Part shown: positions 4,768 to 38,390 of the stretch, in pieces
Layout: each line of letters begins with the position of its first letter
Numbering within the stretch: position 1 is the first letter of the stretch
DNA from: Guyparkeria halophila
Lineage (GTDB): Bacteria > Pseudomonadota > Gammaproteobacteria > Halothiobacillales > Halothiobacillaceae
Assembly (NCBI RefSeq): GCF_034479635.1
Contig: NZ_CP140153.1
Location: 2,053,501 to 2,117,500, forward strand
Direction of reading: 5' to 3'
DNA length: 64,000 nucleotides
Notes under the pieces: model-generated
Seen by the model: only the letters and a program-made list of their open reading frames with translations
Told to the model about the DNA's origin: nothing
Database searches by the model: none
Program-made: the position numbers and the translations under genes

Positions 4768-4913
4768 TGGTAACTACCTGATTATGTTGGGTTAGGCCTC
4801 CGCCACATCTGACAGCGCAACCCCGGCCGAACCGTTGGGCACCCCGCGCTGCCATCTTGATGGGCGTGTGGAATTTCCGGGACAACGTGAGCAAGTCACG
4901 GCCCGGCGCGCGG

Positions 4914-13368: not shown

Positions 13369-13549
13369 TAAAACATGGGCGCTCGTTAGCTCGTTAGGAA
13401 CCGGTGCACGAAAAGTAACCCCGCTCTTTGCGCCTTAAGGGCGGACGACTCAGCAAGCCATCGGGGCATTAACTATTCGCGCAGAGGCTCCTTAGCCACT
13501 TGCGCCGAAAACATCGCCGTCACGCCCACATCTAGGAACGAGACACCCC
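13369..13549 (+). promoter_or_regulatory. Structured leader upstream of the cation antiporter gene
   Basis: The 181 bases before the antiporter contain no gene but several paired elements: a tandem direct repeat CTCGTTAG x2 (13382-13397), a CCCCG/CGGGG pairing (13419-13423 with 13462-13466) enclosing hairpin CGCC-TTAAG-GGCG (13431-13443), and a compound hairpin GCGCA...TGCGC (13479-13505) with inner stem GGCT/AGCC. GATAAA at 13367-13372, overlapping the aat stop, is a possible -10 without a clear -35. This could be a regulatory RNA, but I cannot assign it to a known class. Confidence 0.4.
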
Positions 13550-37448: not shown

Positions 37449-37566
37449 AGAAAATCGGGGGCGGATGGCGCGGGGTGGAGTCGCGCTTGTCCGCGGTAAC
37501 GGCAAGGCGGCGATCCGCCGCGTCCGCCGACGGGAACGGGACCGTTCCGCCGGAAACACAAAATGG

Positions 37567-37925
<359 letters not shown>

Positions 37926-37931
37926 CGGCGG

Positions 37932-37962
37932 AGTATAAAGGAAGGTCTGCACGAATAGCCAA
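37932..37962 (-). promoter_or_regulatory. rnpB promoter, overlapping the inverted-repeat element
   Basis: TATACT (37932-37937) lies seven to nine bases before the mapped 5' end of rnpB. The best -35 is TTGGCT (37957-37962) at a long 19-base spacing. The spacer and -35 lie inside the left terminal repeat of the 334-bp element, so that element appears to supply half of the promoter. Confidence 0.6.
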
Positions 37963-37970
37963 CCCCTCTG
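37939..37970 (+). repeat. Left terminal inverted repeat of the 334-bp element
   Basis: Thirty-two bases, matching the right end with two mismatches (positions 13 and 27 of the repeat). It overlaps the -35 and spacer of the rnpB promoter. Confidence 0.85.
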
Positions 37971-38240
37971 GCTTACCGGCTTGTTCGCCATCAAGGCGTC
38001 GATTCGAAGGCGGGCTCATTGCCCGGCGAGAATCGGCAACACCGAGGGCGGGCAAGCCGGCAAGCCCCGCAGGGCGACCCGGAACGGCGTGCCAGTGGCA
38101 CGCCGCAGCCCGGGAAGCGCCGAGCAACAGCGAGGCCGGAACGGGCCGCCAGGCGCCCATCTGCGGTGTTGCAGCGCTTGCCAATGACTATGGCCATTGG
38201 GCAGCGCACTGCGCCTTGCACCTGGACGCCTGGCGACCCG

Positions 38241-38272
38241 CAGAGAGGTTGGCTATTCGCGCAGACCTTCCT
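38241..38272 (-). repeat. Right terminal inverted repeat of the 334-bp element
   Basis: Inverted partner of 37939-37970. Similarity stops sharply at the outer end (GAAGAA follows) and five bases inside the second mismatch. Confidence 0.85.
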
Positions 38273-38390
38273 GAAGAAACCGCAGCCGGTGTCGAGGCGA
38301 GCGTGATTCGACTCCCGTCATCCATGGGGGAGTCGGGTAGACTTCGAACGCCGAATTCGATCCGATCCCCCCCTTTGCTCGAGCCCAGCC

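Follow-up and report, generated by a model that had tools for sequence, protein, structure and literature searches.

The best explanation as a whole of what we observe upstream of rnpB in Guyparkeria halophila, to which we assign a probability of roughly 0.78, is that a MITE with an IS5-type mover has split the rnpB promoter and that the arms of the element are kept paired at the level of DNA. The element belongs to a family of MITEs with no known mover, whose members are short and multicopy, carry terminal inverted repeats and no transposase gene, and are accompanied by target-site duplications and by empty sites in relatives. An earlier note on this DNA had set a mobile element against a local RNA or regulatory structure, taking a single-copy sequence, conserved at rnpB in all relatives and with its inverted ends kept by compensatory changes, as the mark of the latter. 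The sequence is present at rnpB in one of the 10 genus members with rnpB and in many copies elsewhere, and its inverted ends are kept by compensatory changes; the choice posed is therefore a false one, because the element combines mobility with covarying stems.

The element at rnpB

The features of the rnpB region are collected in Table 1, with positions counted in the window (the whole stretch of 64,000 nucleotides that was analyzed). Read directly from the sequence, the inserted unit begins GGAAGG and finishes CCTTCC; the extent originally proposed (37939-38272) captured a real unit but reached one base too far at either end, into the target duplication. Other parts of that description held up: the 32-bp ends are inverted copies of each other with 30 of 32 positions matching (94%), no transposase lies inside, and the nested inverted repeats resolve into two arms shared by the family and a third hairpin of 65 bp. 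That the ends are abrupt is confirmed by 121 full-length copies from 10 genomes and by the relatives that lack the insertion at rnpB. The 332-bp element has a predicted fold of -217 kcal/mol on the plus strand and -236 kcal/mol on the minus strand (z = -13.5 and -15.2, respectively), and none of 100 shuffles was equally stable on either strand.

Table 1. Positions in the window of rnpB, its promoter hexamers and the parts of the inserted element
Feature	Position	Strand	Remarks
rnpB, class A RNase P RNA	37566..37923	-	Rfam, 325.7 bits
Native rnpB -10 hexamer TATACT	37932..37937	-	
Target duplication, left copy TAAA	37936..37939		2 bases overlap the rnpB -10 hexamer; relatives' empty site
Inserted element (core MITE plus 65-bp extra hairpin module)	37940..38271	+	332 bp
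Left terminal inverted repeat (5' side of outer stem P1)	37940..37971	+	
Candidate replacement -35 TTGGCT, inside element end	37957..37962	-	19-bp spacer; weak; not reported by promoter scan
Left hairpin arm P2	37970..38066	+	limits approximate
Extra 65-bp hairpin module	38077..38141	+	core GGCGTGCCAGTGGCACGCC at 38086-38104
Right hairpin arm P3	38143..38240	+	limits approximate
Right terminal inverted repeat (3' side of outer stem P1)	38241..38271	-	
Target duplication, right copy TGAA	38272..38275		one mismatch versus left copy
Displaced native rnpB -35 hexamer TCGACA	38290..38295	-	

The gene rnpB encodes an essential RNA, and its promoter reads TCGACA-N16-TATACT without interruption in nine of the nine other genus members with rnpB. 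The insertion site reads GGTTTCTTTATACTCC in four of these nine relatives and GGTTTCTTCA, element, TTTATACTCC in the genome studied here, where the native -35 and -10 are 352 bp apart compared with 16 bp in the relatives. By this comparison the element has evidently landed between the conserved -35 and -10 hexamers. A promoter scan recovered the native TCGACA-16-TATACT (10 of 12 positions) in both relatives on which it was tried, and in the rnpB region of the window the same scan reported no promoter. The left end of the element had been credited with supplying both the spacer and the -35 of the rnpB promoter; it does supply the spacer, but its only -35 is the weak TTGGCT (a 4/6 match, 19 bp from the -10). 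Promoter matches of at least 9 of 12 positions with a spacer of 16-19 bp occur at 3 of 242 element ends, the rnpB-proximal end included. From the sequence alone, it is plausible that the insertion lowers or rewires rnpB transcription. In one relative, G001, a different copy of the family lies about 1.3 kb upstream of rnpB (L076, 3161-3290), and the rnpB promoter there is intact.

None of the other 26 copies and fragments in the own-genome BLAST set has the 65-bp module. Stretches related to it are found in other repeats of the same genome and in the left arm of element copies in two relatives (G008 and G010), and its 19-bp core recurs at four other own-genome places, with at most one mismatch, within different repeats. 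The module seems to move between elements.

Copy number, distribution and genomic context

In its own 2.45-Mb genome, the element had many partial BLAST matches, which join into copies of about 266 bp, the rnpB copy being 65 bp longer. We built a covariance model (R1) from 20 own-genome copies, the rnpB copy not among them, and with it located 50 distinct places in this genome (drawn from 89 matches on both strands), of which 29 are full length, including the rnpB copy, and 21 are shorter or degenerate (55 to 267 bp). Searches with the covariance model found the family in 10 of 11 genomes of the genus and in 17 of 27 of the taxonomic family (a second genus had it in 7 of 10 genomes, and two other genera in none of 6); the search at order level covered the same 27 genomes. 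A pattern search for the terminal inverted repeats gave 80 matches, versus none for a reversed control, and a pattern scan of named genomes gave at least 80 loci among the matches listed, all of them in Guyparkeria, Halothiobacillus or Halothiobacillaceae. The element had no blastn match among plasmids and phages.

The set of 121 full-length copies referred to below comprises 38 from G001, 29 from the genome studied here (G000), 23 from G004, 16 from G007, 5 from G002 and a further 2 from each of five other genomes. The copies from relatives are top-scoring matches, so that the set is biased toward well-preserved copies. Two further arrangements were seen: at L134 two copies stand head to tail with 4 bp between them (1229-1496 and 1501-1766), as if the target duplication of one had served as the insertion site for the other, and at 13475-13491 of the window there is a lone terminal repeat (GGAGCCTCTGCGCGAAT on the minus strand) beside TTAG, for which the pattern search found no nearby partner.

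All but four of the 121 copies lie between called genes (70 in tandem, 27 in divergent and 20 in convergent settings); 2 are within a gene and 2 are unresolved (in place of an annotation, genes were called by a script that relies on codon usage and was trained on the window). There is no clear preference for a context, because the gaps of the window itself are comparably divided (22 tandem, 7 divergent and 7 convergent). In tandem settings the element runs against the direction of the genes in 45 cases and with it in 25 (p = 0.022). A role as a terminator was considered and rejected: there is no bias toward convergent genes (20 of 121), and a terminator scan of the rnpB region found none.

Evidence of mobility

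The proposal that this is a non-autonomous transposable element is borne out by its copy number, by 4-bp YTAR target duplications and by empty sites in relatives. Among the 121 full-length copies, 105 begin with GGAA and finish with TTCC. The four bases that flank them have the consensus YTAR on both sides, CTAG being the commonest; YTAR is the consensus over all 121 copies, and the rnpB copy itself has TAAA and TGAA. Exact flank repeats peak sharply at 4 bp, with 32 copies, compared with 2 and 4 copies for repeats of 2 and 3 bp and with 1 and 0 copies for repeats of 5 and 6 bp; these 32 of 121 stand against 8.3 expected and a maximum of 17 in 2,000 partner shuffles.

We compared 48 of the 49 other own-genome places with stretches of G001, and found both flanks for 14. 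Five of these 14 are clean empty sites in G001 (corresponding to one 266-bp, two 92-bp, one 80-bp and one 55-bp copy); of the remaining nine, one is occupied by an orthologous copy, two hold copies of another length and six are ragged or unclear. The length differences at the two shared sites (266 bp in G000 versus 140 bp in G001, with both ends kept, and 108 versus 277 bp, respectively) suggest that arms of the element have been lost in place. One-arm and armless copies exist. The armless 55-bp hairpin, which consists of the two terminal repeats alone (L364, 1005-1059; own genome 1789204-1789258), carries a TTAC/TTAC duplication at a site that is empty in G001, which suggests that the arms are not needed for insertion. 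Another armless hairpin lies at L363 (377-431).

Which transposase moves the element

The target of IS5 is YTAR (PMC10359306), and over the 121 copies we find the 4-bp YTAR duplication of an IS5-type MITE. The usual, although not obligatory, partner of such a MITE, a PF01609 transposase, was not found in the own genome; the domain was found in one of the 11 genus genomes (G007), in an element whose ends differ from those studied here. A closer likeness comes from G016, a member of the same taxonomic family, in which an IS5-family element of 1,211 bp (C48) encodes a 331-amino-acid transposase (NF033581 at 298 bits, compared with a cut-off of 140) and has the ends GGAAGGTCTGATCAATTCCC inside TTAA duplications. 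The first 10 bp of its inverted repeats, GGAAGGTCTG, are common to our element family, and both make a 4-bp duplication of the YTAR type; beyond these 10 bp the ends differ (CACGAATAGC in the element against ATCAATTCCC), and our element, unlike the IS5 insertion sequences, has no coding region. The G016 transposase protein had no match in any of the 11 genus genomes, in a search set without a positive-control genome.

The GGAAGGTCTG ends and the 4-bp YTAR duplications fit IS5-type transposition, and we infer that a transposase of this type moves the element, its partner having perhaps been lost or borrowed. Other families, IS701 among them, also target YTAR, and no IS5-type proteins of the required kind were found in the genus, as might be expected if a YTAR-targeting transposase other than IS5 were responsible; we consider this quite improbable, given that the G016 IS5-family element has both the same first 10 bp and a YTAR-type duplication (TTAA). 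A second structured element with inverted repeats is present in G016 (L242, 669-895; 227 bp with a run of N), with GGAACCTCTGATTGA ends; these differ from the end of its neighbor, GGAAGGTCTGATTGA, at the fifth and sixth bases, which are also variable in the family studied here.

Covariation in the stems

The stems of the element covary strongly. Over 20 copies, standard pairs fill 95.7% of 1,939 pair cells, and changes on both sides are seen at 44 of 97 base pairs. Doubly changed cells number 272, versus 95 when shuffled and 16-41 with the partners slid along; four of five covariation measures lie beyond all 500 shuffles, and the fifth, the number of further pair types, was reached by 39 of the 500. 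The fifth pair of the terminal repeat, for example, is A-T in 51, G-C in 37, C-G in 22 and T-A in 6 of the 120 copies that were aligned (all of the 121 except the rnpB copy, which has the extra module). The idea that the left arm is homologous to the reversed right arm was rejected: in none of five copies did the match exceed the maximum of 500 shuffles.

Compensation is also seen in copies that have remained in place. We found 18 pairs of copies with related flanks, and after exclusion of two redundant pairs of triplets and of one pair with a single matching flank the final set held 15 orthologous pairs at 13 sites, with the same flanks and mostly the same duplication. In 1,452 pair cells these show 70 single and 11 Watson-Crick double changes, the latter against 0.69 expected at random and a maximum of 5 in 2,000 trials. 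The doubles are of transition type in 7 and of transversion type in 4 of the 11 cases, and the singles that break or make a Watson-Crick pair comprise 42 transitions versus 23 transversions. (An earlier count over 17 pairs with per-copy folds gave 16 doubles, 15 of them Watson-Crick, and 74 singles in 1,802 pairs, with a paired/unpaired split biased by the one-copy fold.) The orthologues diverge by 3.2% per site in stems, 6.7% in unpaired element bases and 10.8% in flanks, a biased comparison in that the copies are well-scoring ones. Over all copy pairs, singles plateau near 0.1 per pair and doubles keep rising with divergence, and single mismatches in the hairpin arms therefore seem to be short-lived.

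Alternatively, the doubles of the orthologues might be imports through gene conversion, with other copies within each genome, many of them similar, as donors; that the 11 doubles stem from only 5 of the 15 pairs is as expected of conversion tracts. We think this unlikely, however, because the orthologues are more alike than their flanks (with the same bias of the sample), which is the opposite of strong conversion between paralogues, and because of the steady rise of doubles, and the plateau of singles, with divergence.

The balance of mismatches

Covariation of this kind would ordinarily suggest a structured RNA. An RNA under selection can keep G·U in the transcribed strand but not A·C, the form that this pair takes when the opposite strand is read, so that the balance of the two mismatches bears on the question. 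In the 78 pair columns that are at least 90% Watson-Crick, we counted 100 G·T, 90 A·C and 99 other mismatches (p = 0.51), and at a column threshold of 70% the element has 163 G·T and 168 A·C. As a control we used rnpB from 24 of the 25 family genomes with the gene (the weakest match, G025, was left out), which gives G·T:A·C ratios of 9:0 at 90% and 39:6 at 70%, indicating that the test has power. When the 70 copies in tandem context are oriented by the neighboring genes, the counts are 51 G·T and 73 A·C (p = 0.06). By stem, the G·T:A·C counts are 44:23 for P2, 24:34 for P3 and 31:33 for P1.

Of the features of a structured RNA, then, covariation is present, and neither an excess of G-U over A-C on one strand nor a known Rfam family was found: at a relaxed threshold the element had only two Rfam matches, both to microRNAs and far under the cut-off (17.4 bits at best, compared with 50), which were dismissed as chance. 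(Elsewhere in the window, at 4791-4888, Rfam reports a t44 RNA at its cut-off, with 44.2 versus 44 bits.) A mobile or domesticated structured RNA, in which the element is transcribed and its fold selected as RNA, would account for the extreme fold, the compensatory changes in 44 of 97 pairs, the conserved unpaired motifs, the excess of G·T in P2 and the fixed columns with a non-Watson-Crick majority, of which 6 are G·T and 2 are A·C on the element sense strand. Set against this are the absence of a G·T preference over all stems in either the element or the gene sense, the very different ratios in rnpB of the same bacteria, the lack of a fitting Rfam family and the lack of a clear gene-context preference. 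We therefore regard selection as RNA as very improbable, and the suggestion of a structured intergenic repeat RNA, offered in the earlier note as the alternative to a transposable element, is not supported by the mismatch balance. The covariation of the stems seems to be maintained at the DNA level and not by RNA function; the force most likely acts on DNA, because there is no strand-specific tolerance of G-T.

Intergenic structured repeats of Borrelia offer a parallel, in that their inverted repeats show compensatory changes, including transversions, between related copies (PMC2674063). There the changes were interpreted as strongly supporting a conserved RNA structure, whereas in our element the mismatch test speaks against RNA.

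How the arms may be kept complementary

In the course of events that we propose, the multicopy element with its inverted ends would insert at 4-bp YTAR targets by means of an IS5-type transposase; at rnpB, insertion between the -35 and the -10 would have lowered or rewired transcription; after insertion, as the orthologous copies show, the arms stay complementary while Watson-Crick doubles accumulate; and the likeliest agent of this last step would be the correction of imperfect palindromes by template switching during replication. Such switching, in which one arm of an imperfect hairpin is copied onto the other, has been proposed to maintain RNA hairpins (PMC8794818). In that study, Watson-Crick doubles arise by arm copying and 61.0% of the instantaneous doubles are of transition type (7 of 11 in our element); the proposal there concerns RNA genes, whereas here it is applied to a transposable element without an RNA signature.

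That a DNA process (template switching or hairpin repair) keeps the arms complementary, and does so fast enough to yield RNA-like covariation without RNA function, is a claim to which we give about even odds. The even balance of mismatches, the occurrence of transversions and the compensation within copies that have not moved all agree with template switching. Taken alone, this process does not account for the lower divergence of the stems (3.2% versus 6.7% and 10.8%, in a biased sample) or for the mismatch load of about 3%, which is alike in stems with near and with distant arms (the arms are separated by some 200 nucleotides in P1 and by about 55 in P2 and P3).

These two observations would be accommodated if the stems are selected as DNA, as cruciforms or single-strand hairpins needed for transposition or protein binding, with selection and not mutation bias as the cause: stems do diverge less than unpaired bases, with the sampling bias just mentioned, and the load of about 3% is found in all three stems (columns at least 90% Watson-Crick), a result that local template switching would not predict. 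Yet compensation also occurs in orthologous copies that stay in place, where transposition cannot select, and one-arm and armless copies exist, the armless 55-bp form among them at its site that is empty in G001. We hold selection on the stems as DNA to be possible, if doubtful.

Relation to known elements

Stable folds and promoters have been described in bacterial MITEs (PMC10969869). According to that review, Correia elements, QMITE and MITEAba12 resemble our element in being short and non-autonomous, with inverted ends and direct repeats, and also in being mostly intergenic and strongly folded; some carry parts of promoters. Our element differs from known MITEs in its GC-rich, branched fold, in arms that are sometimes missing and in its strong covariation, whereas MITEs are typically AT-rich according to the review, the text of which does not contain the word 'compensatory'. 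A literature search by title and start of abstract, in which few subscription journals were covered, returned no paper describing the element family and no application of the mismatch-balance test to a MITE. A Guyparkeria pangenome paper (PMC9032823) does not contain 'transpos', 'insertion sequence' or 'mobile'.

Implications

Covariation is widely held to be the best evidence of a conserved RNA fold. If the arms are indeed kept paired by a process acting on DNA, covariation by itself would not prove that an RNA is structured, and the DNA and RNA cases would be distinguished by the G-T/A-C balance; the elements would also provide a natural clock for the correction of imperfect palindromes in bacteria. 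The family, with 50 places in one genome and strong covariation without the wobble signature seen in rnpB, offers material for studying how hairpins may be held paired when RNA is not under selection. The split promoter, conserved in relatives and belonging to the gene for an essential RNA, also serves as a natural experiment, which might show how a bacterium copes with, or repairs, an altered transcription of rnpB.
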